Shown here piece by piece: positions 7,158 to 64,000 of a stretch of DNA of 64,000 nucleotides. Numbering within the stretch: position 1 is the stretch's first letter; each line of letters opens with the position of its first letter. The stretch comes from Streptomyces sp. RKND-216. GTDB taxonomy: Bacteria; Actinomycetota; Actinomycetes; Streptomycetales; Streptomycetaceae. The position numbers were made by a program, and so were the translations under genes. The stretch spans positions 973,001 through 1,037,000 of the forward strand of contig NZ_SSBQ01000002.1 of NCBI RefSeq assembly GCF_004795255.1, in the 5' to 3' direction. The notes beneath the pieces are model-generated. The model saw nothing but the letters and a program-made list of their open reading frames with translations, was not told the DNA's origin and ran no database searches.

Positions 7158-7489
7158 GCCTCCTTCTACCGGAGAAGCGGCGCGATCGGATTCAACGCCA
7201 CGAGCATGGGCCCGACGGCCCCGGCGGCGGTTCCGCGTGCCCACCGGTACGAGCCGCCCCGCCGAAGAGCGGCGACGTACGGTCCTGCCCGGGGGCGCGG
7301 GTGCCGGGAGCCGTGGAGGGGAGGGCCGAGCGGCAGTGGTTCCGGACCACGCCTCGTGCTTCTGCCGTCTGCCGGCCGTCGGAGGCTGACGCACCCCCGC
7401 ACGAGAAGTCCCGCAGGGGGCGGACGGCCGGGGACCCGCCCGGTCCGCGCAGACACGGGCCGGACGGGACCGGCCGGGCGGCCGGGGGG
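7158..7489. other. 332-bp intergenic region upstream of crtE
   Basis: No gene is supported here. Near its right end, just after the P450 stop, is a short inverted repeat (6-bp arms CCGGCC/GGCCGG at 7470-7485, 4-nt loop) that may weakly terminate the terpene-P450 transcript. The crt operon promoter should lie here. In other Streptomyces the crt genes are light-controlled through the ECF sigma factor LitS, but I could not identify a matching promoter by eye and no litR/litS gene is in the window. Confidence 0.4.
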
Positions 7490-8836: not shown

Positions 8837-8867
8837 CACGGCGTTTCCTTGTCTCGGCACCTGGCCG

Positions 8868-18528: not shown

Positions 18529-20724
<2,196 letters not shown>

Positions 20725-22969: not shown

Positions 22970-23335
22970 TCAGGATGCCCACCAGTCCCGGGATCCGCCC
23001 TCATCCGCGCCGCACTGACGCCAGATCAGACCGTCGCGGAGCACGTACACGCCGAACGTGACGACCACCTCACCGCGGACGGTCATGGTGCCGCGCATCA
23101 TGACCGTGTCATCGGTCTGGATGAACTCGTTCATCTCCACGTGCTGCAGGTCGAGTTCCCAGTAGCGGGCCAGGAGTTTCCGGATCTCGTCCTCTCCCCG
23201 CACGGTGCCGGTGAACCGGATCCACTCGGCGTCAGGGTGGTACAGCTTCATGAGTCCGTCCAGGTCACGCTCCGCCGTGCAGCGAACCATTTCGGCGAAG
23301 AGAGGGTGCAGCTCGATCTCGGCTTCTGTGCTCAT
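22970..23335 (-). CDS. SnoaL/NTF2-like small protein
   Basis: This 121-aa protein of the SnoaL-like (NTF2 cone) superfamily shows the helix LFAEMVRCTAERDLDGLMKLYHPDAEWIRF, then a strand-rich half with EFIQTDD and FGVYVLRDGLIWRQ. Members are polyketide cyclases, hydroxylases, isomerases or simple ligand binders, so a catalytic role cannot be read directly. The ATG at 23335 has GGAG 7 nt upstream; open frame to 23419 is not supported. It lies 90 bp after the acyl ligase in the same direction and is the last gene of the cluster on this side. It may act on the polyketide or its precursor. Confidence 0.78.
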   Translation of the reverse strand: MSTEAEIELHPLFAEMVRCTAERDLDGLMKLYHPDAEWIRFTGTVRGEDEIRKLLARYWELDLQHVEMNEFIQTDDTVMMRGTMTVRGEVVVTFGVYVLRDGLIWRQCGADEGGSRDWWAS

Positions 23336-23425
23336 GACAAGGCTCCAGTCGGTTCGGCGGTATCCGTTGCGGACGAGGCGGGCGAGCGGACGAGGTGGCG
23401 TCGAAGACGGAAGGGGCACCGGGGG

Positions 23426-24913
23426 TCAGGAAGCGGAGAACCAGCCGCGAATGGAGCGTTTGATCACCTTCCCGAGGTCGTTGCGCGGCAGTTCGTCCAC
23501 GAGAAGGACCTGAGAGGGTGCCTCGTGGAAGGCGAGTGCACCACGGGCGTGGGCCAGAAGCGCCGACGTCATGCCGGCGTCGTGAGGGGCTCCCTCAGCA
23601 GGAACGACCGCTGCGACCACGGCGCCCTCCGCTGTTCCCACGACGGCGACGTCGCCGACGGAGTCGTGAGCGAGCAGGGCGGATTCGACCCGGAGCGTGG
23701 AGACGATCCCCCTCGGGGTGCGAACGGCGTCCGACTCACGGTCGAAGAGATGCAGCTCGCCCTCCTCGTCAAGGTGCCCGAGGTCGCCGGTGTCGCACCA
23801 TCCGCCCGGGGGTGTCCCCTGCTCCTCGGGTCCGGAGTCCAGGCGGACGCGGGCCGGCGCGCCTTCGGCACGCAGCCATATGCGCCCCACCTGCCCCTGC
23901 GGCAGGGCCTCACCCTGCTCGTCGGTGATCAGTACGTGCGTGCCGGGTGCCGGGCGACCGACGGACATCGGGCGAGACGGGTCGAAGGTGCCGATGGTGA
24001 CCGCGGGTTTGGCCTGGCTCGCCGAATAGGCGCCGATCACGGAGGCGTTCGGCATGGCTTTCAGCAATGCCTGAGCAAGCGGTGGGTGCAGAAAGGCAGA
24101 CGCCGTAGCCACCGTTCTGACCGATGAGACATCGTAGCGCTCCAGCACTCCGTCTCGGACGAGTTGCACCGCGAGGTGCGGAGTCATCATGATCGTGCTC
24201 GCGGCATGCTCCTCGATCAGCGCGCCCAGCCGGTCGGCGTCACCGGGAGGTGCAAGGACGAGGGTCGTCGGGGTGGCGTTGAGGACCATCGAGACCGTGG
24301 TCGCGCTCGCGGTGATGCCGAGCTTCACCGAGGCCACCATCGGCGTCGGTTCGTCGTGGGCCATGACCGAAGGCGGGCCCCCGGCGGTCGCCAGGTTCTC
24401 GTGGGAGACAACCACTCCCCGCGCCATCCCCGTGGTTCCCGAGGAGTAGACGACCTCCGCGTCGTCATGCGGGCTGTGTGCGAGCGCGACCGGCGGGCCG
24501 TCGGCCATCGACAGCTCGTCCAAAGACCGCGTCCACCGGACAGACAGGTCGTCGGGCGGGAGTGTCCGCCCATGCACGATGCCGACCATGCGGCTCTGCC
24601 GTACCCGGCGTTCCGTCTCTGCGGCGGGCAGGCGCACGGACAAGTGCACGACCGCCGCACCGGCCTTGAGCGCGCCGAGGTACGCAACGGCGTAATCGGC
24701 CCAGTCCATGCCGCCGAAGTGGATGCCGACGCGGTCACCGCGACGCACGCCCGCCGCCTGCAGGCCCCGCGCCACCGCCTCCGAACGACGGTCCCAGGCG
24801 CCGTACAGCAGGTCCGGTCGTCCGTCGATGACGAGAGCCACACGGTCGGGGTGCAGCGCCGCGTGCGCGTGAAGTTGGTCGGTGAGGTAGGAGATGGTGG
24901 TCCGCTTCGTCAT
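23426..24913 (-). CDS. AMP-dependent acyl-CoA ligase/adenylating enzyme
   Basis: This 495-aa ANL-superfamily enzyme activates a carboxylic acid as the acyl-AMP, usually then to CoA. The P-loop-like motif VVYSSGTTGMARG lies near residue 150. The A8 motif appears as GWCDTGDLGHLDEEG, and the C-terminal catalytic Lys is in PRNDLGKVIKR. No carrier domain is fused. The ATG at 24913 is chosen; a GTG at 24922 that overlaps the PIG-L stop (GTGA) is equally plausible. Leinamycin-type clusters encode a stand-alone CoA ligase, LnmW, of unsettled role. The residues lining the acid pocket do not let me name the substrate. Confidence 0.82.
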   Translation of the reverse strand: MTKRTTISYLTDQLHAHAALHPDRVALVIDGRPDLLYGAWDRRSEAVARGLQAAGVRRGDRVGIHFGGMDWADYAVAYLGALKAGAAVVHLSVRLPAAETERRVRQSRMVGIVHGRTLPPDDLSVRWTRSLDELSMADGPPVALAHSPHDDAEVVYSSGTTGMARGVVVSHENLATAGGPPSVMAHDEPTPMVASVKLGITASATTVSMVLNATPTTLVLAPPGDADRLGALIEEHAASTIMMTPHLAVQLVRDGVLERYDVSSVRTVATASAFLHPPLAQALLKAMPNASVIGAYSASQAKPAVTIGTFDPSRPMSVGRPAPGTHVLITDEQGEALPQGQVGRIWLRAEGAPARVRLDSGPEEQGTPPGGWCDTGDLGHLDEEGELHLFDRESDAVRTPRGIVSTLRVESALLAHDSVGDVAVVGTAEGAVVAAVVPAEGAPHDAGMTSALLAHARGALAFHEAPSQVLLVDELPRNDLGKVIKRSIRGWFSAS

Positions 24914-24918
24914 CCGTG

Positions 24919-25650
24919 TCACCCCACAAGCTCGAAGGCGACGCCTTTGCGGTCCCCGAACCGGGGCGCGGTGGCGGCCAGGAGGTGGTCGAGAATGAAG
25001 CGTGCCCGATCCTCCGGCGGATCCTCGCTCAGAGCCAGGAGGTAGCGGCGATGGGCGGCGAGGGAGCGGACAGCGCGTTCCGCGGCGTCCGCATCGACGG
25101 CCACAGCGTGTGTTGCGCGGGGGGAGCCGGCGACTGCCACGCGGCGGGCACGCCACGGTTCGAGACCCTCCTCGGCGAGCCTGGGGAAGATCCACGGGTT
25201 GGCGGCGTCGGCCACCGCGTCCAGGGCGGCCCGGCCGACGGCACGGTGATCGGGGGTGTTCCAGGCGCCGGAGGCCCAGGTGTCGTGGTGGTTGAAGGTG
25301 AGGATGAGGTCGGGACGCCACCTGCGTACGGCGCGGGCCAGGTCCCTGCGCAGGTCCGGCCCGTAGACGATGGAGCCGTCGGCGTGCCCTTCGAGGAAGT
25401 CGACGTCGCGCACGCCGAGTTCCGCCGCGGCCTTGCGTTGTTCCGCTTCGCGCGCCGGTCCACACTGCTCCGGCGCGAGGTCGGATATACCGGCTTCGCC
25501 GCGGGTCACCAGGAGGTAGACCACTTCCCGGCCCTGCGCGGTCCACCGGGCGATGGCAGGGCCGGCCCCGAACTCGATGTCGTCGGGATGGGCAACGATG
25601 GCGAGCGCGCGGCTCCAGTCGTCGGGCATGTCGAGGAGTGCGTCGGCCAT
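24919..25650 (-). CDS. PIG-L/LmbE-family metal-dependent deacetylase
   Basis: This 243-aa PIG-L family hydrolase has the zinc-binding AHPDDIEFG motif at residues 20-28, TRGEAG near residue 52, and the second metal motif [13 protein letters not shown] near residue 133. Relatives deacetylate GlcNAc conjugates (MshB) or cleave mycothiol S-conjugates (Mca). Next to a gene set for a sulfur-containing, thiol-reactive metabolite, a role in mycothiol-conjugate processing or self-protection is attractive but only inferred. It overlaps or abuts the acyl ligase gene and lies 150 bp downstream of the MFS gene. Confidence 0.85.
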
Positions 25651-25800
25651 GAGATCTCCGTACGTTGTCGGCGAGGGGATGGACCGACGGCGTCCGAGCG
25701 ACGTTCCGGGGCTCGGCTGCAGCCGGGGCTGACATGCGTTGCGAACGCGGTGGACGGAAGTGAAGCACTTTCCCGAGGCGCCGGGGCCGGTGACGGGTTC

Positions 25801-27228
25801 TCAGGCGGCCTCGGGCTCGGACGGTACGCGAATGACCAGAAGGGCGACCGCCAGGGCTGCGGCCATGATGGCGGTACAGGACAGGAATCCGACGCGGAAG
25901 CTGTACGTGTCGCCCAGGCCACCGGTCGCCTGCGTGACGGTGGTCAGCACCGCGAGCCCGAGCGAGCCTCCTACGAGCATCGCGGTGTTGAACAGGCCCG
26001 AGACGGCACCAGCGTCGGTGGGTGCGATGCCGGCGGTGGCGAGGGAGCCGGCGGGCATCATGGTCAGGCCGAGGCCGATGCCGGAGAGGATGGTGGGGCC
26101 GAGCACCGCGCCCAGGTAGGAGACGGAGGGTGCCGCGACACCGAGCCACGCCATGCCCACCCCGAGGAAGCTGAGGCCAAGCACCAGCATGCGCCTGAGT
26201 CCCACCCGGTCGACCGTCTTCGTGCATACCTGCGCGGAGACCATCAGGATGGCGATCAGAGGAAGGTAGGCGATGCCCGTCCTGAGCGCGGAGAACCCCA
26301 GTTGACCCTGCAGGTACAGCGTGACGAAGTAGAAGTAGCTCATCTGCGTGGCCCCCCACATCATCATGATGCCCAGGGCACCGCCCGTATTCCGTCGGCG
26401 GAGGAGGTGCAGGGGGACGACCGGGTGTTCCTGTCGCCGCTCCACCGCGAAGAACAGGACCAGGAGCCCCGCCACAACCACGAGCAGACCCCCGCGCTGC
26501 GGGGCGCTCCAGGGGTTGTCGGTGTCCAGGAACACGAAGACGGTCAGCAGAAGTGCCGCAGTGATCGTCACCGCCCCCACCACGTCGAGCGACGGCCGCT
26601 CCTCGGCACGGCTGTCGGTGAGGGTGGTGAGCGAGAGCACGACGATGGCGAGCCCGATCGGGATGGAGAGGAAGAAGCTGAACGGCCAACCAGGGCCGGA
26701 CGTCAGCAGACCGCCGAGGAGGAGGCCGAAGAGTGCCCCCGCAGCTGCGGCGCTGCCCCACAGCGCCAGAGCCTTCTGTCGCTTGGGCCCCTCGGGGAAG
26801 GAAGTGATGATGAGGGACAGCACGACCGGCGCGGTCAGGGCACCCCCGACTCCCTGGACCGCTCGCCCGACGACCATCGTCGCCGGATCGGTTGCGAAGC
26901 CGCAGACGGCGGAAGCCACGGTGAACACGGTGATGCCGATGATGAGGACCCGGCGGCGTCCGAACACGTCACCGATCCGGCCTCCGATGAGGAGCAACCC
27001 TCCGTAGAGGAGGGCGTAGGCGTTGACCACCCACGGCAGGCCCGGTTCGCTGAAGCCCAGGTCACGCTTGATGAACGGCAACGCGACGTTGACGATGGTC
27101 TGGTCGACCTGGATGAGCAGCTCGGCCATCAGCAGCGTGAGCAGAATGAGCCGCGTGAGGACGGAGCCCGGCTCCGCGGTGGCTCTCTTGTCGGTTGCCG
27201 AGGGCTCGTCGGTGGGCCGGACGGTCAT
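25801..27228 (-). CDS. MFS drug-efflux transporter (DHA2, 14-TM)
   Basis: This 475-aa major-facilitator transporter of the 14-TM DHA2 type uses proton antiport. TM1 carries LIQVDQTIVNVALP (motif D1). The loop-2 motif A is GGRIGDVFGRRRVLI, and motif C-like glycines follow in TM5. It most likely exports the product of the adjacent leinamycin-type cluster, as LnmY-type MFS proteins are thought to do. The ATG at 27228 has AGGAGA 3 nt upstream. Open frame upstream to 27696 overlaps the DUF3224 gene and is rejected. Confidence 0.88.
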   Translation of the reverse strand: MTVRPTDEPSATDKRATAEPGSVLTRLILLTLLMAELLIQVDQTIVNVALPFIKRDLGFSEPGLPWVVNAYALLYGGLLLIGGRIGDVFGRRRVLIIGITVFTVASAVCGFATDPATMVVGRAVQGVGGALTAPVVLSLIITSFPEGPKRQKALALWGSAAAAGALFGLLLGGLLTSGPGWPFSFFLSIPIGLAIVVLSLTTLTDSRAEERPSLDVVGAVTITAALLLTVFVFLDTDNPWSAPQRGGLLVVVAGLLVLFFAVERRQEHPVVPLHLLRRRNTGGALGIMMMWGATQMSYFYFVTLYLQGQLGFSALRTGIAYLPLIAILMVSAQVCTKTVDRVGLRRMLVLGLSFLGVGMAWLGVAAPSVSYLGAVLGPTILSGIGLGLTMMPAGSLATAGIAPTDAGAVSGLFNTAMLVGGSLGLAVLTTVTQATGGLGDTYSFRVGFLSCTAIMAAALAVALLVIRVPSEPEAA

Positions 27229-27371
27229 GACTCTCCTGGTCTCCTGTGCGCACCCGCCGGTCCGGCGGGCTCGGACGCACCCCACAGTAAGGACGGGGAT
27301 GCGGGCGGGATGCTCACTACAGCGCATCGCGGGGGGAACGCAGCCGGTGCCCCGCAGGGGTGAGCGTGCAG

Positions 27372-27401
27372 GGGCCGGGGCGCACGTCGCGGCCCCGGCC
27401 C
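27372..27401 (-). terminator. GC-rich hairpin after the DUF3224 gene
   Basis: A perfect 10-bp stem, GGGCCGGGGC at 27372-27381 and GCCCCGGCCC at 27392-27401, with a 10-nt loop, lies 18 bp beyond the DUF3224 stop on the - strand. It likely separates that gene from the MFS gene. Confidence 0.6.
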
Positions 27402-27418
27402 AGTGACACGTCCCGCCG

Positions 27419-27811
27419 TCAGAGGCGGTATTCGACCGTGTACTCGGCCGTCTTCTCATCCAGGGACTTGACGGATCCGGTGCCCGAGATGCCGGCGAAG
27501 TCGCCGGTTCCGGTCCCCTCGACGAGGGTCCACCTCTCGTCGGCGGCACTGGTGAAGACACCTTCGATACGCGCCACGAAGGTGCCTTTCCTGTCGCCGA
27601 TGGAGCCCTCGAAGCGCTGGAGGCCCACGTACGTGGCCGAGCCGCCCTCTCCGTAGGCGAGGAGGTACTCCAGGACGCCCTCGCCCTCAAGGTCACCGCT
27701 GAAGGTGTTCTCCACGCTGGCGCGTGTCAGGGAGGCTGAACCCTCCTGCTGGTGGTACGGGTTCTCGTTCCACGACTTCGTGGTGTACGTGCCGGTTGCT
27801 CGGGTGGTCAT
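27419..27811 (-). CDS. DUF3224 protein (copy 1)
   Basis: This 130-aa DUF3224 protein is all-beta and looks like a single allene-oxide-cyclase-type barrel. It repeats glycine-rich strands such as FSGDLEGEGVLEY, ATYVGLQRFEGSIGDRKG and VEGTGTGDFAGISGTGSV. No catalytic residues are established for the family. A second family member is encoded at 29343 on the other strand, on the far side of the P450. A role as binding, cyclisation or stress protein for the pathway is only inferred from that placement. Confidence 0.8.
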   Translation of the reverse strand: MTTRATGTYTTKSWNENPYHQQEGSASLTRASVENTFSGDLEGEGVLEYLLAYGEGGSATYVGLQRFEGSIGDRKGTFVARIEGVFTSAADERWTLVEGTGTGDFAGISGTGSVKSLDEKTAEYTVEYRL

Positions 27812-27870
27812 CCTGCGGTGGTCCTCTCGTGCGGGACGATCGACTGGCCGTGACTGTGCGCCAGCTGATG

Positions 27871-27892
27871 TGACGGACCGTCATCGTATACT
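27871..27892. promoter_or_regulatory. Palindrome and TATACT upstream of DUF3224 copy 1
   Basis: A perfect 13-bp palindrome TGACGGACCGTCA (27871-27883) is followed by TATACT (27887-27892), which reads GTATAC-like on both strands, about 60-80 bp before the DUF3224 start. The pairing of a TetR/MarR-size operator with a -10-like element suggests a regulated promoter. No regulator gene is adjacent. Confidence 0.4.
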
Positions 27893-27971
27893 CCGGGGAC
27901 AGCCTGTCCTTCCGCGTACGTCGGGCAGGGCTCAGTTCAAGCCACCGGGCTCGGAAGGTGCAACCGAATCT

Positions 27972-29180: not shown

Positions 29181-29251
29181 TCTGCCTGCCTCCTTCAGAT
29201 TACCGCCGGGCCCGACGGCCGACGAGCACAGTGCACGCTGCGCCGCACACG

Positions 29252-29270
29252 GCGTGACGCCAGGTCACGC
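29252..29270. promoter_or_regulatory. 19-bp palindrome between divergent P450 and DUF3224 genes
   Basis: Seven-bp arms GCGTGAC (29252-29258) and GTCACGC (29264-29270) with a 5-nt spacer lie in the 162-bp divergent intergenic region. The location suggests an operator controlling one or both genes. Confidence 0.45.
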
Positions 29271-29342
29271 TAGCGGCCGCAGCAGCCGGGGCATGCTCAA
29301 TCCGGAACATCCCCGGGAGGCGTCGCGCCCGATACTGCGCGC

Positions 29343-29747
29343 ATGACACTCACACGGATCCAGGCCACGTTCACCGTCGACGTCTGGGACGCCACCCCTG
29401 ACGAACCGGTGGAGGGCGGCCCCAGCACGGGTCGGGTGGAACTGAGCAAGACCTACACCGAGGGAGACGTGACCGGCACGGCGGCGGGCCACATGGCCAC
29501 CACGCAGGGCCCCGGGGGCGCCGCCTACGTGGCGCAGGAGCGCGTCACCGGCACCATGGCCGGCCGCACGGGGACGTTCGTCCTCGAACACCGGGCGACG
29601 CAGATTCTCGATCAGGAACCAGTGACGTGGGCTGGCATCGTCCCCGGGTCCGGCACCGGCGAACTGTCGGGCGTGAGCGGCGAGGGAACCCTGGGACACG
29701 GCACTCTCGATCTCCGGGTGGAGTTTCCCGACAGGGACCGCACGTAG
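29343..29747 (+). CDS. DUF3224 protein (copy 2)
   Basis: This 134-aa DUF3224 protein has the same strand pattern as copy 1 (YTEGDVTGTAAGHM, AAYVAQERVTGTMAGRTG, VPGSGTGELSGVSGEGTL), but the two are clearly diverged. It is the only + strand gene in the whole cluster, divergent from the P450 and convergent with the phosphopantetheinyl transferase. No Shine-Dalgarno is at the usual distance (GGAGG is 23 nt away). GATACT lies 6 nt before the ATG, which would fit a leaderless transcript. Function is unknown; its placement suggests a link with the P450 or the product. Confidence 0.78.
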   Translation: MTLTRIQATFTVDVWDATPDEPVEGGPSTGRVELSKTYTEGDVTGTAAGHMATTQGPGGAAYVAQERVTGTMAGRTGTFVLEHRATQILDQEPVTWAGIVPGSGTGELSGVSGEGTLGHGTLDLRVEFPDRDRT

Positions 29748-29787
29748 CCTTCCGGCGGCCCGGCACACCTCCCACGGCTATGCGCCG

Positions 29788-30588
29788 TCAGCCGACGCGC
29801 AGCCGATGTGCCGGATAGGTGCGCCACGGGAAGCCGTGGTGCACCTGGACCGCCTGCTCACCGGGGGCGCGCCGTTCCACCGCGACCGCGGCGACGACGT
29901 CCGGCCCCGCGTCGAACACCCGGAATCGCCAGCGGGACTCCACGTCGTCTTCAGGGGGCCGGAATCCGACCACGTGACCGGTTTCGTCGAGAGCGAACGC
30001 GAAGGAGTCGAAGGGCAGGCCGATGCCTGTACCGCGCGCCTTCACGTATGCCTCCTTCAGGCTCCACAGCCGGGTCGTCGCCCTGTCACGCGTCCTGCCC
30101 TCCTCTAGAGCGCGCAGACCGCTGCACTCCTCGTCGGAGAACATCGCCGCGATTGCGGCGGATCCTTGGCCTGTCGCCGTCCGGGAGACTCGTTCCACAT
30201 CGACGCCGACACGGCCGGGCCGGGCGAGTGCCAGGGCGTTCATGCCCTCGGTGTGGGAGAGGTTGAAGTCGAAGGCCGCCCGGCCTCGCGGCGCGACGCT
30301 CTCCGGGAGCCGCAGCCGCGGTCGGCCCAACGGGGAGCGCACGATGACCAGTTCGGCTTCCGGGATTCCGGTTTCCAGGGCAAGTGCCCGCCGGACCAGC
30401 ACCCGTGCTGTGCGGTACTGCCGGCGGTCCTGTTCACGGCGGAGCCGCTCCCCCGCCGCCCACTCGTCGGGGTCCAACCAGTGCAGGGCCAGTATGTCGG
30501 CCGTCGGCGGCGGCAGCGCCTCGTTCGGGCAGAGCCACACCGTCACCTCGCCGTCCTCCCCGTGCGGGAGAGCACCGTGAGCCGACAT
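29788..30588 (-). CDS. Sfp-type 4'-phosphopantetheinyl transferase
   Basis: This 266-aa Sfp-type PPTase converts apo carrier proteins to their holo forms. The GVDVERV motif (Mg2+ ligand region) and the WSLKEAYVKARGTG signature are intact, and DFNLSHTEG supplies the conserved His. Its ATG overlaps the thioesterase TAA (TAATG), so it is coupled to the leinamycin-type operon and likely serves the many ACP/PCP domains of the two megasynthases. Open frame upstream to 30720 lies inside the thioesterase and is rejected. Confidence 0.92.
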   Translation of the reverse strand: MSAHGALPHGEDGEVTVWLCPNEALPPPTADILALHWLDPDEWAAGERLRREQDRRQYRTARVLVRRALALETGIPEAELVIVRSPLGRPRLRLPESVAPRGRAAFDFNLSHTEGMNALALARPGRVGVDVERVSRTATGQGSAAIAAMFSDEECSGLRALEEGRTRDRATTRLWSLKEAYVKARGTGIGLPFDSFAFALDETGHVVGFRPPEDDVESRWRFRVFDAGPDVVAAVAVERRAPGEQAVQVHHGFPWRTYPAHRLRVG

Positions 30589-31340
30589 TACCCGGGCGGA
30601 CTGAGGGCCGGTGCCAGAGAGGACCACAGCGCCTCGAGCACTTCCTTGGAGTCCTTCAGGTAGAAGTGGTCCCCAGGGAAGACCCGTAGCCGGAAGTTCC
30701 CGCTGGTCACCTCGCGCCACCCGCCGACCTCCTGCGGCGCGGCGAGCGGATCACGATCGCCGCAAAAGGCGTGGACGGGGCAGGAGAGCAACGGGCCGGG
30801 TGCCGGCCGGTAGGTCTCGTTCAGCTCGAAGTCGGCCCGGAGAAACGGCAGGAACAGACGGATCACCTCAGGTTTGCCGGCGACCTCCGCCGGGGTGCCG
30901 CCGAGCCTGACCATCTCGGCCAGGAAATCCTTCTCCGCCAGACCCGAGACCGGTGACAGCCGGCTGGGCATGTGGGGCGCTCGTCGCCCCGAGACGAGCA
31001 GGGCCTCCGGCCCGGGGTCTCCGGCCCGGCGCAGGGCACGGGCCGCTTCGTAGGCGACCACCGAGCCCAGGCTGTGTCCGAAGAAGGCGTAGGGACGGTC
31101 CAGGTGGGGGCGCAGGCCGGCGACGAGCTCGGAGACGAGAGGGGTCATGCGGCGATGGGGCTGCTCCCGCATTCGTGATTCGCGTCCCGGGAGGACGACC
31201 GGAACCACTTCGATCCCCGTAGGCGTCTGCTCGCGCCACGGGCGGAAGAAGGCACTGCCGCCGCCGGCGTGTGCGAAGCAGAAGATCCGCAGGCGCGCGT
31301 CGGCGCCGCTCGGGGTAGGACTGACCCAGGAGCCCGACAT
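30588..31340 (-). CDS. Type II thioesterase (LnmN-like)
   Basis: This 250-aa alpha/beta-hydrolase is an editing thioesterase. The nucleophile elbow is GHSLGS with Ser90, the acid is in FCGDRDPL, and the His is in FPGDHFYL. The oxyanion region is FAHAGGGSAFF. Type II thioesterases clear misprimed or stalled carrier proteins, and leinamycin clusters encode one (LnmN) next to the HMGS-like gene as here. It follows the HMGS-like gene by 45 bp and overlaps the PPTase start by one base. Confidence 0.92.
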   Translation of the reverse strand: MSGSWVSPTPSGADARLRIFCFAHAGGGSAFFRPWREQTPTGIEVVPVVLPGRESRMREQPHRRMTPLVSELVAGLRPHLDRPYAFFGHSLGSVVAYEAARALRRAGDPGPEALLVSGRRAPHMPSRLSPVSGLAEKDFLAEMVRLGGTPAEVAGKPEVIRLFLPFLRADFELNETYRPAPGPLLSCPVHAFCGDRDPLAAPQEVGGWREVTSGNFRLRVFPGDHFYLKDSKEVLEALWSSLAPALSPPG

Positions 31341-31385
31341 GTTGGTTTCCCGTGCTTTCTCTCGTCGTCGGCGGCCGACTCGTGC

Positions 31386-32642
31386 TCAGCGCCACGTGTA
31401 CTGCCGGTGGTAGTTCTTGACGCCGGTGAAGGCGAGGATCTCCTTGCGGTCGACGGCTCGTTGACCGATCGCTTCCCAGCGCGCGGCGTCGATCATCCGG
31501 TCTTGCACGGGTACCAGGCACTTCAGGTTCTCCTCCAGGAGACCCGTGTACTCGTCGAAGGAGACGTCGGCTCGGTTCTCCACATGGGTGCCGATGTTCA
31601 TGGCAGAGACCGTGGCGGCGCTCTCCGCGTCCACGACGCCGCTGAAGAACTCCGAGGAGCAGCCGGAACCGTAGGAGAAGACGCCGACGCGGCTCGGAGC
31701 AGTCACCGTGCCCGAGTCGAGGAGGCTGGCAAGGGCCAGGTAGACGGAGCCCGAGCACAGGTTGCCGACGAGCGAGGGGTACCTCAGCGACGGGACGACG
31801 CGTCGTGCGAAGTCCTCCTGCAGCTCGCCCGCCGGCTTGCCGCGGTCCCGCATCAGTTTCCGGTGGGCCGCCTTGACCAGTCCGGCGAACGGCGTGTGCA
31901 TCACGAGGTGGTCGAACGTCGTGGCGATGTCGACGCCCTCGACCCGGTCGGCGTAGTCCGCGAAACTGTGCGTCAAGCAGTCGAGGTAGGCGAACAGCGA
32001 GCGGTCCACGTCCGCGATGTCGAAGTCCGGTGCGGGCCTGGCCGAATCCAGAGTCTCGTAGCTGTAGTTGCCGAAGGCGCCGAGGTCCAGGGGCATCACT
32101 CGGGGATCGTCACTCAGCAGGACGGCGGCCGCACCGTGTCCAGCGGCCGGTTCCGAATAGGCCGCCCGCTCGTCGACGACGGCCACGTCCGTCGCGATGA
32201 CCAAAGCCTTTGCACCCGGCGATAGGCCCGAGGCCAGATAGCCAGTCGCCAACTGAACGGCGGCCGTGGCCCCGAAGCACGCCTGTTTGACCTCGATCAT
32301 CCGGCAGTGACGACTGAGCCCCAGGTACTCGTGCACGTACGAGGCGACGGACTTGCTATAGTCCACGCCCGACTCAGTGGAGGTGACGAGGATCTCGATG
32401 CGGTCACGCTGCTCGGGCGGGAGGGCGTCGACGATCGGGCGTGCCGCGTTCACCGCGTTGGTGACCGGGTCCTCGAAGGGGAGTGCCAGGGAGCGGCGCG
32501 TCATCATCAGGTTGTCGATGCGGTCGGTGTCCAGCCCTCGTCCCCTGAAGAGCTCCTGGACGGTGATGGCGGCGAGTCCGCACCACACGTTGAGCGCCTC
32601 GATGCCGCAGCCGTCGCGGCGGACGTACGCGGGCTCGGTCAT
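31386..32642 (-). CDS. HMG-CoA-synthase-like beta-branching enzyme (LnmM-type)
   Basis: This 418-aa HMG-CoA-synthase homologue condenses an ACP-bound acyl donor onto a beta-ketoacyl-ACP of the PKS. The catalytic Glu90 is in STESGVDYSKS, the nucleophile Cys122 is in VKQACFGATAA, and the His249 is in HTPFAGLVKAAH. In leinamycin biosynthesis LnmM uses a propionyl donor made by LnmK on LnmL, giving a C2 branch. The same three genes are adjacent here, with ATGA overlap to the ACP. The enoyl-CoA-hydratase-like partner (LnmF type) is not in the window. Confidence 0.93.
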   Translation of the reverse strand: MTEPAYVRRDGCGIEALNVWCGLAAITVQELFRGRGLDTDRIDNLMMTRRSLALPFEDPVTNAVNAARPIVDALPPEQRDRIEILVTSTESGVDYSKSVASYVHEYLGLSRHCRMIEVKQACFGATAAVQLATGYLASGLSPGAKALVIATDVAVVDERAAYSEPAAGHGAAAVLLSDDPRVMPLDLGAFGNYSYETLDSARPAPDFDIADVDRSLFAYLDCLTHSFADYADRVEGVDIATTFDHLVMHTPFAGLVKAAHRKLMRDRGKPAGELQEDFARRVVPSLRYPSLVGNLCSGSVYLALASLLDSGTVTAPSRVGVFSYGSGCSSEFFSGVVDAESAATVSAMNIGTHVENRADVSFDEYTGLLEENLKCLVPVQDRMIDAARWEAIGQRAVDRKEILAFTGVKNYHRQYTWR

Positions 32643-32899
32643 CGCTGCTCCTCACAGAGGAAGTCCACGAGCGTCTCGATGTCGGGGATGTCGCTGAACG
32701 CGGACATCGGCGTGCGAATGCCGGTGCGCTCGACGAGCAGGGCGATGATTTCCACACGGTCCACGGAGTCGGCACCGAGGTCCTTCAGGTGCCTGCCACC
32801 TCCGATCAGCTCGTCGGGTACGCCGGGAAGGATGCCTCGGACGACCTCGCGCACGAGGGCGTGCGTAGCCGCCCGTTGCGAGGAGTGGGCCAGTGTCAT
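32639..32899 (-). CDS. Stand-alone donor acyl carrier protein (LnmL-type)
   Basis: This 86-aa acyl carrier protein has the phosphopantetheine Ser45 in LGADSVDRVE. It is a discrete ACP, not fused to the PKS. It sits between the LnmK-type and HMGS-type genes with ATGA overlaps on both sides, which identifies it as the donor ACP of the beta-alkylation cassette, loaded and decarboxylated by LnmK. The N-terminal helix is short, and the sequence around Ser lacks a Leu after Ser (DSVDR), as in other donor ACPs. Confidence 0.93.
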   Translation of the reverse strand: MTLAHSSQRAATHALVREVVRGILPGVPDELIGGGRHLKDLGADSVDRVEIIALLVERTGIRTPMSAFSDIPDIETLVDFLCEEQR

Positions 32900-33876
32900 G
32901 CCGGGTCCTTCCGTGGAGGTGCGGTCGGTGCGGGGACTGTGCGAGTGGTGCTGACGGCGAGGACGCGCCGGGTGTCGCGGTCACGTACCACCACGTCACC
33001 GACCTCGTCGCCAGGGACGCCCGTGCGCCGCCAGGACGATGCGGTGAGAGTGAGCACGGAGTCCACGTCGGCGTTGCCGAGGTAGCAGATCTGCTGGTCG
33101 ACGACGGTTCGGGCGAGGAAGGCCGCGGCCGTGCCGCCGCGTTGCCGCCACAGGGCCAGCAGCGCCTCGTCGACCATGGAGAAGTAGGACGCGAAGTAGA
33201 GCAGCCCGACTCCGTTGACGTCGCGGAGGACGTCGACGGGGTGGGTGACGGTCACCTCGTCCGGCATCGCCTCGTAGGCGGGATTCGTCGGGTCGTGGAA
33301 GGTGAGGTCTCGTCGGGCCCGCTGGTACACCGCCCGGGGCGAGAACCGGTCCGGCAGCATCGGCAGGTCCCGGTGCCGGAAGCCGGGAGGAGACGCCTTC
33401 ACCAGCCCCTGGTTGCTGCCAGGGGTGCTCCGTGCGATCCAGCGGTTGAAATTCTCCACGTACAGGCAGTTCTCGCGTGGGCCGAGGTGGAACTCCTCCG
33501 GATCGAGCTGGCGCTCGGCCTCGCCGTCCTCGCTACGCGTGATGCGGTGGAGCGTGAGGACCGACTCGCTGCCCTGGTCGTAGCAGCCGGACACGACGTC
33601 GAGCTGGTCGCCGAAGGTGAGGACGCGGGGATTGATCGAGGCGCTCCCTCGGACGCGGAAGTAGTAGAACGCCAGGTACGTCGGATTCCCGGCGTCGTCG
33701 CGTGCGGTGAAGACGTCCGTCTCACACAGCTCGCTGACCGTTTCCCAGGTCCAGTCGCCGAGGAGGCCCACAAAGAGGGAACTCGGCCCGCACATCCCGG
33801 GCCGTACGGTCACGGAGCGGCGGACGCCGGTACCGCCCGGGCTCCGTGCGGCTGCGGCGCCGGTGGGCGATGTCAT
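32896..33876 (-). CDS. LnmK-type bifunctional acyltransferase/decarboxylase
   Basis: This 326-aa protein matches LnmK of the leinamycin pathway, a double-hotdog enzyme that loads methylmalonyl-CoA onto its ACP and decarboxylates it to propionyl-ACP. Recognisable segments are RPGMCGPSSLFVG, GDWTWETVS and NPTYLAFYYFRVRG (from about residue 64). The catalytic Tyr of LnmK lies in this last segment; Tyr67 is the probable equivalent. The second hotdog repeats the pattern around GLLYFASYFSMVDEALL. Its ATG overlaps the LnmJ-type stop and its stop overlaps the ACP start. LnmK is diagnostic of this family of pathways. Confidence 0.9.
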   Translation of the reverse strand: MTSPTGAAAARSPGGTGVRRSVTVRPGMCGPSSLFVGLLGDWTWETVSELCETDVFTARDDAGNPTYLAFYYFRVRGSASINPRVLTFGDQLDVVSGCYDQGSESVLTLHRITRSEDGEAERQLDPEEFHLGPRENCLYVENFNRWIARSTPGSNQGLVKASPPGFRHRDLPMLPDRFSPRAVYQRARRDLTFHDPTNPAYEAMPDEVTVTHPVDVLRDVNGVGLLYFASYFSMVDEALLALWRQRGGTAAAFLARTVVDQQICYLGNADVDSVLTLTASSWRRTGVPGDEVGDVVVRDRDTRRVLAVSTTRTVPAPTAPPRKDPA

Positions 33877-36800
33877 CGGTCACTCCTCGTCGTTGCGGAG
33901 GGGGCTGCGACGCCGGCCGGGTGCTGCGCGAGGAAGGCGGTCAGGACGTCGTTGAACTCCTCGGCGCTGGTCAGGCTCGGGAAGTGCCCCGCGTCGGCGA
34001 CTTCGTGGTAGCGCGAGTGAGGAATCAGACCGTGGAGCAGGTGAGCGGTCTTCAGCGGGATTACCGTGTCGTGCCGGCCGTGGACGATGAGGGTCGGGGC
34101 AGAGACGTCGGCAAGGCGGTCCAGGAGGTCCGGTTCGGCGGCGAAGACGTCGAGGTAGCGCAGCCCCGTGAGTGGGTCCATGCTCTCGCTGCGCAACAGC
34201 ACTTGCTCATGGTGCGCGCGGTCACGGGCGAAGCGGGGGGACGCGGCGTTCCTTTCGACGTGGTCGAAGTCCTCCTCTACGACGACGCCCAGCCGGTTGG
34301 CCTCGTCTGCGCGGTTGCCGAGCTTGTACGAACTGCCCACGAGGGTCAGCGAAGCGGTGCTCTCGGGGTGGCGCAACGCGAAGGTCTGCGCGACGAGGCC
34401 GCCGAAGGAGGCTCCCGCGATGTGGACGGGCTCCCGGACGCCCAGGGCGCCGAGGGCCTGGCGGGCCAGGTCCGCGAGACCGGCGTAACTGAGGTCGTCC
34501 GCCGCAGTCGTGGCCCCCACCCCGGGATGGTGCACGACGATCACCCGGTACCTGTCGGCCAGGGCGGTGAACTGAGGACCGAACAGGCCGGCTCCGATGT
34601 TGAACGGAAGCATGAGCAGCAGGGCAGGTCCGTTGCCCGCGCTCCACACCTCCACCTGACCGCCCGGCACCTCCAGCAGGTGGCGTTCGACGTGCTCGGC
34701 CAGTTCGCGCAGCACCGCGGCGGTCTCGTCCTGCGCCGTGTACCCCTCGGCGAGTGCCTCGCGAATGTCTTCGGGGACGTGCTCCGCGGGATGGAAGCGT
34801 GCCAGTGCCGGAGTACCGGGGCCGGACGTGGCCGGCAGGAGATCGCGCAGGCCGCTCCGGTCGGCGAAGAGCCGCGTCAGACGGTCCACCACCTCGTCCG
34901 CCTCGTCGTCCTCCATCCCGACGGGTACGGCAAGACGGACCAGCCCCGCATCCTCCTTGCCGCTGCCCAGGTGCGCAGCGGCACGGATGCCCGTGTGCCG
35001 GTAGATCCACGCCAGCACCGCCGGAACGGGCTGCCGGAATGCGCGCAGCTCCCGCATGCGTCCTGTTTCCAGCAGGACGCAGTGGGTCGCCGGGCCCGGG
35101 AGGAGGGGGAGACCGGCGTCGCTCAGTGCCTGGTGGATCCGCGCGACTCGGTGCACGCGGTCGTGGACGGCCCTCACCGCCCACCGGTGGTCCCTGAGGG
35201 CCGTCAGGGTCTCCGCTCGGCCAGTACGGCTCACTGCGGGGCCTCTCATCGAGAGGTGCTCCGTCAGGTGGGCAGCGACTTCCGGGTCGTCGGTCGCGAC
35301 GATCCCCCCGGAGTCGGTGCCGAAGTTCTTGCTCAAGCTCATCGTGACCGCGTCGGCCAGGGACAGGATCTCCTGTGCGACCTCGAACGGGTCCTGGTGA
35401 TGCCGTCCTTTCTCCTGGGTGGTGATGAGGACGGCGTTGTCCAGGACGCGCGTGGTGTCGAGGACCAGTCGTACAGCGTGACGGTCGGCCAGTTCACGGA
35501 CGGCGGTGAGGTTGGCGAGGGACAGCGGTGCCCCGCCCTGCGCGTTGACGCCGGTCTCGACGCACAGGAAGGCGATCCGTCCGGCGTGCTCGGTCAGGAC
35601 GGCTTCGAGGTGGTCCAGATCGATGTCCCCGCGCAAGGCACCGGCGGGGTCGGTGCGGACGCCGACGGGCTGGAAGCCGTTGTCCATCAGGCTGAAATAC
35701 CAGGTCGGGAAGACGGAGTTGTGCACGACCACGGGACCGCGCGAGGGCCATGCCCGGCACAGCGCCGCCTCCGCCGCACGTCCGGAAGGGGTCGGCACCA
35801 CGCAGGAGAAGGGCAGCAGGTCGATGTCTTCGAGGGTGTGACCGGGAGTCAGCTGAACCGCACGCCGTTGGAGTTCGCCGGTTCGCGCCGCGGTGAGCGC
35901 AGGGCCGAGTTCCGCCCAGGAGTCGGTGACCAGGTCGTGGTCCACCAGGTCGGCGGGGAGAAGCAGAGGGTTCCAGCCGTGGGCCTCGAGGTGCCGGGTA
36001 CGCCGGTCGAGCGCGAGATCCGCCGGGCCCGTCGGTGCGGGGGCAGGGCGCTCGGGCGGGATCGCGGGGTTCTGTGCGGGGGCCGCCTCGGGTGTGGCCG
36101 CCCCTTGCCCCGCGCGGTCGGCACCGACCTCCGGGTCCGCGATCATGAGGATCAACCGGGACACGTCCGTGCGTGGTTCGCCGGCCGGCTGGCACAGGTA
36201 GAGCGGGTGGTTGTCCGGGCGGAACTTGTTCTTGAAGCGGAAATTGCCGTCACCGGTGAAGATGCCGCGAGACCGCAGTTCCGCGAGGGCGGCCTCGACC
36301 TCGGGCGCCGCATTGGGGGATTCGCCGATCCGGGCGCCGAAGCTGCCGCCGAAGCTGAAGACCGTGCACCCTTCAGCGGCCGTCCTCTCGATGATCTTGA
36401 CCACGGCGTAGTCGAGGCCGCCCGGGGGCGCGTCCTCCGGGTAGAACTCCAGGTCGAGGAGGTAGCCGGGCTCCGAGGGGATCTTCGTCACGATCACCGC
36501 GCTGACCATACGGTCGTCGACGTACGTGAGGAACATGCGGTGTCTCTGCTGCAGGATGCCACGCCCGATCTCGTCCCGCACCGTGGAGACATAGGGGTTC
36601 ACCATCGCCTTCGCGTCGCCCCACCTGTCGATCATCTCGGTGATCGCACGGTCGGTCGTCCGATCGGAGCCGACCTCGTACTCGACGGTGCGGCACTCAC
36701 CGGACTTCTCGAACCTGCCGATCAGGTAGCGCAAGCGCGCCATGCGGCCGCCTGCGAGGGAGAAGTTCTGGATGTCTTCCAGGCGTTGCAGGGCGCCGAA

Positions 36801-62000: not shown

Positions 62001-64000
62001 GTGACGCGCCGCCCGGGGACGGGCCACATACGGGCCCAGTCCACCTCGTGACCGCGCAACCACTGGTCCACGACCCGGGCGGGGTCACCGTCGGCAGCCC
62101 CCGCTGCGGGGTCGGCGACGCCCGTCCGCAGGTCGGAACCGGCCTGCCCGTCGAGGAAGCGGCCAAGGCCGGCGACCGCCCCGGGCAGGGTCCGGGCGGT
62201 CAGGGCAAGCCGGTGGGCGTGAGGTACTCGCCCGGTCTGCAGGGTCCAGGCGACATCCGGGAGGTTCAGGTTCGCGGCGTGCGTGGTCAGGTGGTCACAC
62301 AGCGTTCGTGCGGCGGTGGCGAGGCGCTCGCGGGTGTCGGCGGAGAGCAGCAGGAGCCGGCGGGTGTCGGGGCCTCCGGCATCGTGGTCGAACGTCGCGG
62401 ACTCGGGGACCGCGTCCGCCGCCTGCTCGCGGTCGGGGGGACGGGACGTCAGGATCGCATGACCGTACGAGCCGGTGGCCCCGACAGCATTGACGAGAGC
62501 GGTGCGACGGCCGTCTGCCGCCTTCTCCGTCCAGGGGCGGCCGCGGTCCACCACCTCGACGGGGAGAGCGGCCCAGTCGACGAGGTCGTTGCGGCGGCGG
62601 GCGACCGTGGTGGGTGCGATGGTGCCGTGACGCATCTGGAGGAGGACCTTGATGACCTGGGAGAGGCCCGAGGCCGCCTCCAGGTGCCCGATGTTGGGTT
62701 TGAGGGTACCGACGGGGAGGCGCGGTGCGTCGCCGGACGTCGCGAAGACCTCGCTGAGGGCCTCCAGTTCGGCGACGTCCGCGATGCCGGATCCGGCGGC
62801 CGCGCACTCCACGTAGTCGATGTCCCCGGGGGCTGAGCCCGCCTCGGCGAGGGCTCGCGAGAGCGAGTCGGCGAGCCGCTCGGCACGGGGCGCACCGTAG
62901 CGGGGGGCCCGTCCGACGTGGGACATCCGGGTGCCTTCCACGAGTCCGTGGACGACGTCGCCCGCGTCTGTGGCCGCTGCCGCGGGGCGCAGCAACAACG
63001 CTGCTACGCCTTCGCCCGGGTACCAGCCCGACCCGTCGGCGGGGAAGGCTTCCGGAGTGCCGGACGTCGCGAGCAGTTCCATGCCCTCCAGGAGTCCCCA
63101 GTGGTAGGGGTGCGCGAGCAGGTTGGCCGCCCCGACGACGGCCGCCCCGCATTCGCCTCGCCGCAGGCTCTCCACCGCCAGGTGGAGGGCGGCCAGGGAG
63201 GACGCGCATGAGGTGTCGACGGCCATGCTGGGGCCTTGGAAGTCGAAGAAGTGGGAGATCCTGTTGGGGACGTCGGACGCGGTCGCCGGTGTCCGTGCCG
63301 GGCCTCCGTCGGCCCAGTGGTCGGCACCGCGCAGCCGGTGGTCCTGCCACATCGTGCCGATGAACACTCCGACCCGCCCGGCCGACAGGCGCAGCGACTC
63401 GGCTGTGTGCCCGGCGTCCTCCAGGCACCTCCACACCGCCTCCAGCAGGAGCCGGGCCTGCGGGTCCACGAAGGGCGCCTCCGCCGGCGAGACGTGGAAG
63501 AGCAGGCTTTCAAACCGGTCGATGCCGTCGAGGAAGCCACCGCGGGGACGTGTTCCTCCCCGCGCGACCTCACCGCGGGAGGGAGGCACAGGCCCGACGG
63601 CGGACCTTCCGGAGGCCAGATTGTCCCAGAAGGTGTCCAGGTCGTCCGCTCCCGGGAAGCGACCCGCCATGCCGATCACGGCCATCGGTTCCGGCGCGGC
63701 GGGGAGCTGCGGCCACGGCCCGGTCTGTACGGCGGCCACGGTGCCCACCGGTGTCGTCGCGGGGCGGCCGAACGGGGGGCGCAGCCCTGCCGCGGAGCTG
63801 GAGGCGTGGGACGCGGCACCGCCGAGGAATGCCTGGAGGAAGACGTGTCCCTCGTCGAGCCCCAGGGATGTGGCCAGCCCCTCGAAGGAGAGCGCGCCGA
63901 TCGGGCACAGGCCGACACCGGCCGCCGCCTGTCCCATCATCAGCAGCTGCCCCATGTGGCCCGCTTCCAGGGTGAGGTAGCGAAGACTCTCCTCGCCGTA
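56042..64000 (-). CDS. LnmI-type NRPS-PKS, C-terminal 2,652 residues (5' end beyond window)
   Basis: This is the 3' part of a hybrid NRPS-PKS gene that runs off the right edge. Window residues 1-65 are the end of a SagB/nitroreductase-like oxidase domain (MGQLLMMGQAAAGVGLCPIG), the type that oxidises thiazolines in NRPS modules. Then follow KS (100-490, CASS kept but the first His motif reads ECAAAGSG, Ala400), ACP (GLTSLL, Ser near 744), KS (838-1257, Cys-His-His intact), KR (1480-1940, GGTGGIG and Tyr in VSDYAAANAF), ACP (GVESVML, near 2066), KS (2140-2553, intact) and a short tail. No AT is present. The last KS has no partners on this protein; its DH-ACP-KR are at the start of the next one, as in LnmI/LnmJ. 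The first KS is probably non-elongating and moves the thiazole intermediate from NRPS to PKS. Confidence 0.92.
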   Translation of the reverse strand, partial: YGEESLRYLTLEAGHMGQLLMMGQAAAGVGLCPIGALSFEGLATSLGLDEGHVFLQAFLGGAASHASSSAAGLRPPFGRPATTPVGTVAAVQTGPWPQLPAAPEPMAVIGMAGRFPGADDLDTFWDNLASGRSAVGPVPPSRGEVARGGTRPRGGFLDGIDRFESLLFHVSPAEAPFVDPQARLLLEAVWRCLEDAGHTAESLRLSAGRVGVFIGTMWQDHRLRGADHWADGGPARTPATASDVPNRISHFFDFQGPSMAVDTSCASSLAALHLAVESLRRGECGAAVVGAANLLAHPYHWGLLEGMELLATSGTPEAFPADGSGWYPGEGVAALLLRPAAAATDAGDVVHGLVEGTRMSHVGRAPRYGAPRAERLADSLSRALAEAGSAPGDIDYVECAAAGSGIADVAELEALSEVFATSGDAPRLPVGTLKPNIGHLEAASGLSQVIKVLLQMRHGTIAPTTVARRRNDLVDWAALPVEVVDRGRPWTEKAADGRRTALVNAVGATGSYGHAILTSRPPDREQAADAVPESATFDHDAGGPDTRRLLLLSADTRERLATAARTLCDHLTTHAANLNLPDVAWTLQTGRVPHAHRLALTARTLPGAVAGLGRFLDGQAGSDLRTGVADPAAGAADGDPARVVDQWLRGHEVDWARMWPVPGRRVTLPGHVFAGDRHRFGPPANSSPAPDAAPLPPEAEPASAAGEQALRRAERYLTDLYAEASGIPAERLHPQVPLEQYGLTSLLVSRLNARLQAEVGPVTQTVFYEYRDLAGVADHLVRLHDGPWTENSGESAAGEPADGKPAAAAAGPAVPAPPAPAVSAAPPAHGGTPEAEPLAVVGLAGRYPQAPDLREFWRNLEQGRDCVTPVPPDRPVAACGAQLMHGGFLDGVDRFDPLFFGITPRDARLMDPQERLFLEVVWEALEDGGYSRARLRERIGSRVGVFAGTMYNEYPFFGVERSLSGEPEDTGSAVAGIANRVSYLLDLSGPSMAVDTMCSSSLTALHLAAQSLRRGECSAAVVGGVNLSLHPHKFRQQARLGMTSSDHRCRSFGADGDGFAPAEGVGALLLRPLGAALADGDRIHAVIRGTSVNHGGRTTGYMVPNPAAQAELVLRAVRESGVDPSTIGYLEAHGTGTRLGDPIEISGLTTAFADAHLPPGSCAIGSVKSNIGHPEAAAGIAGLTKVILQMRHRRLAPSLHSRELNPAVDWETSPFRVVREAEPWHAPVTADGAAAPRRAGLSSFGAGGANVHVVVEEHVPAPDGSPPRPGGSEPDPQLIVLSATHPHRLREVARRLAERLRTDEAAGERAALPEVAYTLQVGREGLRERLAVVVAQEERLLELLDEVAAGRTPEEVLRGRVPGDARPVGVCAAPRPGKDRLAELRRVAVHWVAGGDVTWDALHAERRRLVSLPSYPFLRDRYWLPAPAQDGPEEPGRPGPSPGTAAAHLGDPQRRRSVEAEPSPTLHGPALYTSVWTPEALPPGVGALTGRVVCVFTHRTEALARALAVRLGSHRVTLVLHGTGAALGGDILDDESAADRIAARCADGADGAGDVAALVDLCDAAGGQRADDSAPWTARLRLLQRLVRVRRGHDLRVLLVTEGLHRVPDTGPALDGARMAGFVRMLGAENARVSATVVDVPAGGTHPERAARLIHAEMLAGDGLTEVCHDGEVRRRRRLVALPASPARPVELDPHRAYLVTGGTGGIGAAAARRLVRRGARLVALTGHRPVPPRAQWSSLDPDSRDGAVAALVRDLEAAGAHVLLHAGSLADIGRSRAFLDRVRDELGPLGGVLHCAGRGPLGTPSFAGKSVADVRAVMEPKAEGVETLARLCASDELDFFVLFSSLSAVSPLLARGVSDYAAANAFLDYFAEHRALGLPGLRSVNWPTWSQNGMGADHPDGCAPAGVGSLSEEEGLRLLERLLTLPPDVSRVVVCPPLDSELVSPDALLGADPTHEEPLAPGRLARPGTAPSTPGAVPDISAPTAADVTTALPGAPYAPSSSALQSGAQHTPSGSPVPQPSPVEQLVTESQEDALAWLTPLFAEVLAIDEADLDPTVPFGDLGVESVMLGELVFRMEEATAASLDPAVLLEHPTLHQLASHLEALGVRSRADVPRPSGPAPAPATGAPPVEDHGGMSGRVAVIGMAGRFPGAPDVAAFWDNLVAGRCSVTEVPPSRWDVRDLYRTEYAHGRSVSKWGGFVEGVEYFDPDWFGMTEAEAVALDPVIRLFLEEAATCLTDAGYREQELAGRAVGVFAGARTTGYGRRARTLPGGVGMGGDQNFVSARVAHRFDFRGPNVVVDTACSSSLVALQAACRSLREGESEMALAGGVDVLLDEEPYLDFSAAHALSRVGRCATFDENADGFVPGEGCAVVLLKPLESALRDGDRVHAVIESVAVNNDGRTMGLTTPNPVAQAEVIGRALTESGLRARDIGMIEAHGTGTMIGDPIELRALTEAFRRDTDLTGFCAVGSAKSNVGHLLSASGMAGLVKAVLAVREGVIPPTLFCDTPNPRFDFDASPFFPNRVPRTWTPPAGGRRIAGVSAFGLGGTNAHILVGSPESPAPSAPAPRSPLPAPEFRRRRLWLERESVSVPEPASAPGPAHTIPSARPHQGEDSASRPSLTTSLLDIGPGAAASAGRWVVPASRPEGQQC

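Follow-up and report, generated by a model that had tools for sequence, protein, structure and literature searches.

Identity and extent of the gene cluster

Does the leinamycin-like gene cluster of Streptomyces sp. RKND-216 encode the biosynthesis of leinamycin, of a near congener or of something else? The DNA in question is a stretch of 64,000 nucleotides (C2:973001-1037000, the window; G+C content 71.4%) from a genome of 5.61 Mb in two contigs. An earlier note, written from the letters of the window, had assigned positions 22970..64000 to a trans-acyltransferase (trans-AT) nonribosomal peptide synthetase-polyketide synthase (NRPS-PKS) cluster of the leinamycin (lnm) family and had suspected an undescribed product. 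Another 57 kb to the right of the window were added, giving 121 kb examined; coordinates above 64000 are extrapolated window numbers, and adding 973000 yields the contig position. Proteins and domains were named by Pfam and NCBIfam profile searches, "below cut-off" meaning under the threshold of the model. The lnm letters were assigned by order and function; A-E, H, N, O, R-U and V-Z' follow the customary lnm nomenclature. The roles of LnmQ, P, I, J, G, L, K, M and F are stated in PMC9570651.

The locus is a new, intact member of a known family. With a probability of roughly nine in ten it is a complete lnm-type cluster of the leinamycin subclade, with leinamycin or a near congener as product. 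The genes, their order, the domains, the active-site motifs and the phylogeny behind this explanation are direct observations; between leinamycin and a congener the sequence cannot tell. The cluster is complete on the 5.58-Mb contig. Its left edge is at 22970 as proposed, the right end had to be moved to the extrapolated position 81088 (Table 1).

The assembly line

The LnmI-type protein, of which 2652 aa, the C-terminal part, lie in the window, has the predicted order of KS, ACP and KR domains after the oxidase. Its N-terminal part carries condensation/cyclisation (Cy), adenylation (A), PCP and nitroreductase-type oxidase (Ox) domains ahead of the KS domains. Just past the window the NRPS start was found, with Cy, Cys-type A, PCP and Ox together with discrete A and PCP proteins; the Cy-A-PCP region, the LnmG-like trans AT and the LnmF-like hydratase expected to the right of 64000 are all present. 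Identity with LnmI predicts a cysteine-specific A domain: its core motifs between A4 and A5 are identical to those of strain CB01635, while the LnmQ-type protein has conservative differences. The LnmJ-type protein, equal in length to the database protein P0003 (7390 aa), has the domain string DH-ACP-KR-KS(pseudo-ACP)-ACP-KS-DH-KR-ACP-MT-ACP-KS-DH-KR-ACP-KS-ACP-ACP-DUF-SH-TE, thus the end DUF-SH-TE read from the window was correct and is preceded by two ACPs, both with the active serine. The terminal module KS-ACP-ACP-DUF-SH-TE agrees with the definition of the leinamycin type in PMC7618002, which gives eight modules for such clusters. Seven KS domains are distributed over the LnmI- and LnmJ-type proteins, and the domain string matches LnmI/LnmJ of CB01635. 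The published LnmJ string of S. atroolivaceus is also the same, once the DH domains and the pseudo-ACP, unlisted in that table, are set aside. An ECH domain was not detected in the LnmJ-type protein at E <= 0.001 (Pfam); weishanmycin (WSM) module 5 has an in-cis ECH domain (PMC7618002).

The trans AT (LnmG) and all genes of the HMGS cassette (LnmK, L, M and F) are present. The gene order I-J-K-L-M-N, described as almost entirely overlapping, was confirmed with four bases of overlap each for M/L, L/K, K/J and J/I and one base for PPTase/N; the exception is N-M with a gap of 45 bases.

The SH domain is predicted to be a thiocysteine lyase by its pyridoxal phosphate (PLP)-binding lysine and its closeness to a PKS SH domain. 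This lysine was present in 102/102 aligned SH regions, own included, representing 102 of at least 103 proteins. By sequence, the best solved chain was 9cen, annotated 'Polyketide Synthase Protein' and taken by us to be an SH domain, with 297 bits versus 121 bits for tyrosine phenol-lyase. An ordinary tyrosine phenol-lyase or aminotransferase was ruled out by these scores and the tree of DUF-SH proteins.

By analogy with characterised relatives, from which we infer every chemical step and the product, LnmQ and LnmP would load alanine (D-alanine in leinamycin), and LnmI would add cysteine, cyclise it to a thiazole and start the polyketide. LnmJ would extend the chain with malonate, LnmG acting as the trans AT that delivers it. 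The last module would see LnmK-L-M-F make a carboxylated beta-branch at C-3 and the DUF domain add thiocysteine; SH would cleave it to a hydropersulfide, and the TE would close the macrolactam. LnmA/B with the LnmZ P450 system and LnmV-X may oxidise and finish the molecule to leinamycin or a near congener.

Table 1 Features of the cluster; positions above 64000 are extrapolated
Feature	Position	Strand	Evidence
LnmV-type SnoaL-like protein, 121 aa, left cluster edge	22970..23335	-	SnoaL_2 1.1e-14; 85% to CB01635
LnmW-type acyl-CoA/AMP ligase-like protein	23426..24913	-	AMP-binding 2e-47; 75% to CB01635
LnmX-type PIG-L (mycothiol/bacillithiol-deacetylase-like)	24919..25650	-	PIG-L 1.9e-30; BshB1/MshB/Mca matches below cut-off; 80% to CB01635
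LnmY-type MFS exporter	25801..27228	-	MFS_1 8.9e-55; 72% to CB01635
Extra DUF3224 protein	27419..27811	-	DUF3224 7e-35; 77% to K. griseola, only 32% to CB01635 DUF3224
LnmZ-type cytochrome P450	27972..29180	-	p450 5e-27; haem motif present; 77% to CB01635
LnmZ'-type DUF3224 protein	29343..29747	+	DUF3224 1.4e-26; 78% to CB01635
4'-phosphopantetheinyl transferase (PPTase)	29788..30588	-	ACPS 9.1e-17; 62% to K. griseola; no match in CB01635 95 kb
LnmN-type type II thioesterase	30588..31340	-	Thioesterase 7.3e-47; 60% to CB01635
LnmM-type HMG synthase	31386..32642	-	HMG_CoA_synt_C 1.4e-17; 75% to CB01635
LnmL-type discrete ACP	32639..32899	-	ACP models, best 3.3e-12, below cut-off; 64% to CB01635
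LnmK-type bifunctional acyltransferase/decarboxylase	32896..33876	-	TIGR04098 4.9e-80; PDB LnmK chain 4hzo 1.5e-118
LnmJ-type trans-AT PKS, 7390 aa	33873..56045	-	Pfam, motif map, alignment to CB01635 LnmJ
TE domain of LnmJ-type	33873..34718	-	Abhydrolase_1 7.3e-20; GASFGG
SH (predicted thiocysteine lyase) domain	34746..36038	-	Beta_elim_lyase 1.7e-27; PDB 9cen 2e-87; PLP Lys residue 6896 (7380-aa numbering)
DUF domain (PF09924/DUF2156), predicted tandem-GNAT MprF-like fold	36135..37139	-	LPG_synthase_C 6.2e-14; profile vs 5vrv 5.6e-15; model and fold search
Ser-less carrier-like insert in module-5 KS linker	51516..51761	-	PP-binding 2e-7, above cut-off
LnmI-type NRPS-PKS, 4462 aa	56042..64000 in window, gene to 69430	-	Cy-A-PCP-Ox-KS-ACP-KS-KR-ACP-KS
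LnmH-like DUF6039 protein	69555-70427		Profile search beyond window
LnmG-like AT fused to PfaD-type oxidoreductase	from 70486; true start probably ~72.8 kb		
LnmF-like enoyl-CoA hydratase	72795-73628		
LnmD-like alpha/beta hydrolase	73773-75089		Only 49% to CB01635
LnmA-like P450	75588-76787	+	81% to CB01635
LnmB-like ferredoxin	76795-77025	+	tblastn, 71%
LnmO-like Crp-type regulator	77339-77989	+	
LnmP-like PCP	78047-78310	+	
LnmQ-like A protein	78319-79923	+	
LnmE-like protein, last gene, right cluster edge	80171-81088	+	

Comparison with known clusters

CB01635 is a strain named as leinamycin (LNM)-producing, and its LnmK is near-identical to the LnmK in the PDB. In a comparison region of 95 kb, counterparts were found for 22/24 genes (21 by protein match, and LnmB). 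Shared are also the LnmI/LnmJ domain string at the displayed motifs, the Ser-less ACP, both P450s and the ferredoxin. LnmV, W, X, Y, Z and one DUF3224 protein are 72-85% identical to their counterparts; LnmA, V, X, Z and Z' are the best conserved of all, and the tailoring P450s LnmA (81%) and LnmZ (77%) rank above LnmI/J at 62-64%. A close counterpart is missing in the 95 kb only for the PPTase and the second DUF3224 protein, which the cluster described here adds; Kitasatospora griseola JCM 3339 has both (62% and 77%). The two DUF3224 proteins, PIG-L, SnoaL, the coupled PPTase and the degenerate ACP listed in the earlier note are all real, but the accessory set was incomplete and includes an MFS exporter, an acyl-CoA/AMP ligase-like protein and, cluster-wide, two P450s. 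The suspicion drawn from that set, an undescribed product, found no support, since LnmV-Z, one DUF3224 and the Ser-less ACP occur in the leinamycin-producing CB01635.

K. griseola shares the DUF-SH clade and the left-half order V-W-X-Y-DUF3224-Z-Z'-PPTase-N-M-L-K-J, with 68% identity in SH; its record stops inside lnmJ, so only the left half was compared. Kitasatospora sp. CB02891, compared by its LnmJ-type protein alone, belongs to the same clade (SH 68% identical). CB02959, likewise examined over 95 kb, has the core genes D-Q and a single LnmA-like P450, all with 49-75% identity; an LnmX-like gene reaches 57%. In the CB02959 genome, LnmV (E <= 1e-10) and LnmW (E <= 1e-40) were not found. The gene calls of its 95 kb contain no LnmY, second P450 or DUF3224, a soft absence because these calls missed the LnmX-like gene. 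Guangnanmycin, weishanmycin and largimycin (LRG) were compared through the papers, their cluster sequences not being identified among the matches; according to PMC8479088, PMC7618002 and PMC13200230, they share the family, DUF-SH and the HMGS cassette. The latter two sources describe a second beta-branch at C-9 for WSM and LRG.

Phylogeny and distribution

The DUF-SH tree (46 rows, DUF-SH proteins only, no outgroup) placed the protein with that of S. albidoflavus (100/96) and both with two Kitasatospora proteins (100/100). This four-member clade is sister to CB02959, NPDC028635 and CB01635, all seven being united at 100/100. Gene content, domain order, the NRPS, trans-AT and HMGS genes, partly outside the window, and this tree uphold the assignment to the leinamycin family. 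The kinship of SH to unrelated aminotransferases, which would have spoken against it, was not seen: the nearest solved chain is a PKS protein, and the tree, within its DUF-SH members, puts the protein into the leinamycin subclade. Nor did the other adverse outcome arise, a missing NRPS module and trans AT. The closest SH domains among the matches listed were from S. albidoflavus (72%), Kitasatospora CB02891 (68%) and Streptomyces NPDC028635 (60%). The S. albidoflavus protein (P0004, 4352 aa) joins an LnmJ-type C-terminal half to an unrelated N-terminal stretch, therefore only the C-terminal part was compared; PF07693, the KAP P-loop NTPase family, is listed for it, and the joint may be an assembly artefact or a real fusion.

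At least 103 proteins with a DUF-SH-TE region, own included, were obtained from 673 candidates listed (P0029 and P0030 bear one strain name). At E <= 1e-60 the SH domain was present in 11/392 genomes of the same genus, again counting our own. A search in 61 relatives gave, besides the own SH, strong hits only as a 41% match and a 49% fragment, both in another family; the other matches were weaker, of tyrosine-phenol-lyase or tryptophanase size, or fragments. LnmK follows the TE at 30/41 named loci, of which L032 and L033 are alike and come from two contigs of one strain. Homologues of LnmV, W and X were counted genome-wide in 38 DUF-SH genomes (L032, L033 and L042 left aside) and occurred in 13 (1e-10), 25 (1e-40) and 30 (1e-30), respectively; many are near the SH gene, a nearness judged by eye and uncounted. 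As leinamycin-only markers of dithiolane enzymes these genes were thus rejected. In PMC13200230 the dithiolane-forming enzyme is called still unidentified; with LnmV-, W- and X-like genes not unique to leinamycin, the expectations on this enzyme are narrowed.

Leinamycin, a congener or a relic

Several observations weigh against the favoured explanation. A PKS identity of 62-64% is low enough to allow a different congener, LnmD shares just 49% with its CB01635 counterpart, and the gene order is rearranged, with LnmE moved and both LnmA-B and O-P-Q lying on the opposite strand. The third DH of the LnmJ-type protein has HxxxD, not HxxxG. Searches of the 121 kb gave no LnmC and no ABC transporter genes LnmR-U in the cluster; LnmR matched only a gene outside it. 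The altered DH motif and these missing genes also favour a distinct new congener, differing for instance in oxidation or dithiolane finish, which the Kitasatospora clusters of this clade would make as well. The own clade apart from that of CB01635/CB02959 (100/100) points in the same direction, as do the additional PPTase and DUF3224 genes that K. griseola has too. On the other side, the tailoring genes of the CB01635 type are kept, with LnmA, V, X, Z and Z' most conserved, and CB01635 is matched in module order and in the core motifs of the A domain. We regard the chances of such a congener as evenly balanced; it is a narrower form of the explanation given above, and the two confidences overlap.

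A pathway outside the leinamycins that shares the sulfur module only could be imagined, as other PKS families also carry DUF-SH modules according to PMC8479088. The lnm core gene set, the NRPS start, the KS-ACP-ACP-DUF-SH-TE end and the tree leave it a negligible probability, and the gene content already contradicts it. Improbable, though less so, is a silent or decaying relic. The genome is small (5.6 Mb), and five of the cluster genes (LnmJ, LnmI, LnmF-, LnmO- and LnmP-type), the Crp-type regulator among them, contain six TTA codons in total, which suggests a possible bldA dependence. However, the 24 cluster genes as called contain no internal stop, and the catalytic motifs are intact where displayed. 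As an intact leinamycin-subclade cluster, the locus lends itself to engineering and to comparisons of which tailoring genes persist, and it may offer a second source of leinamycin or a congener.

The DUF domain and the Ser-less insert

A fold search with the predicted DUF model matched aminoacyl-tRNA-dependent transferases of the MprF/FemX type. The DUF domain shares with MprF/A-PGS enzymes the sequence family PF09924, the predicted tandem-GNAT fold and the FKxKF lysines; unlike them, it is a soluble domain within a PKS. Aligned to A-PGS, K316 and K318 (the lysines of FKxKF) and D242 were present in 27/27 DUFs. Three residues past the conserved aspartate, all 27 have phenylalanine (F245) where the displayed MprFs have arginine, a residue with a catalytic role in A-PGS. 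In print, the DUF reaction has been proposed to be a conjugate addition rather than an acyl transfer. We consider it improbable, but worth stating, that DUF is a PKS-embedded aminoacyl-tRNA-dependent transferase which moves thiocysteine (cysteine persulfide) from a persulfidated cysteinyl-tRNA to C-3 of the ACP-bound chain; if true, the sulfur of leinamycin-family drugs would come via tRNA. In a weaker form, DUF would descend from aminoacyl-tRNA-dependent enzymes and now use free thiocysteine. As a separate point of the same speculative reading, the Ser-less insert would be a conserved non-catalytic docking element. The function of DUF and the origin of thiocysteine, both open questions, become directly testable biochemically with Cys-tRNA.

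The degenerate ACP was rejected as a hallmark of this cluster, as CB01635 LnmJ and other lnm-type proteins also have a Ser-less ACP. Its flanks have the predicted fold of a trans-AT KS linker. For its placement, an HMM from six Ser-less sequences was combined with a filter for linker motif and position. The insert was placed in 46/105 proteins (the at least 103 DUF-SH-TE proteins, own included, plus LnmJ of CB01635 and CB02959) and not placed in 59; nine of the 46 placements are weak, as they had E > 0.001 (weakest 1.3). The phosphopantetheine serine was missing in 46/46 placed inserts, across many lnm-type proteins. Fold searches with the KS-linker model gave no lone carrier protein among the 50 matches listed each; KS, KS-AT and AT structures fill these lists, which is therefore no argument against an ACP-like fold of the insert. 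Ser-less insert and DUF are features of the family, not of the strain.

Neighbouring genes

Directly left of the cluster, at 18529-22137 (-), a Family 2B encapsulin shell protein was identified above cut-off; the 725-aa terpene cyclase beside its gene resembles encapsulin cargo just below cut-off. Further left, at 3378-9989 (-), are phytoene synthase-/desaturase-like genes of the carotenoid type, a polyprenyl synthase-like gene, a P450 and a selina-4(15),7(11)-diene synthase. Just past the right cluster edge, at the extrapolated positions 81749-82084 (-), is a fragment that by eye resembles a transposase.

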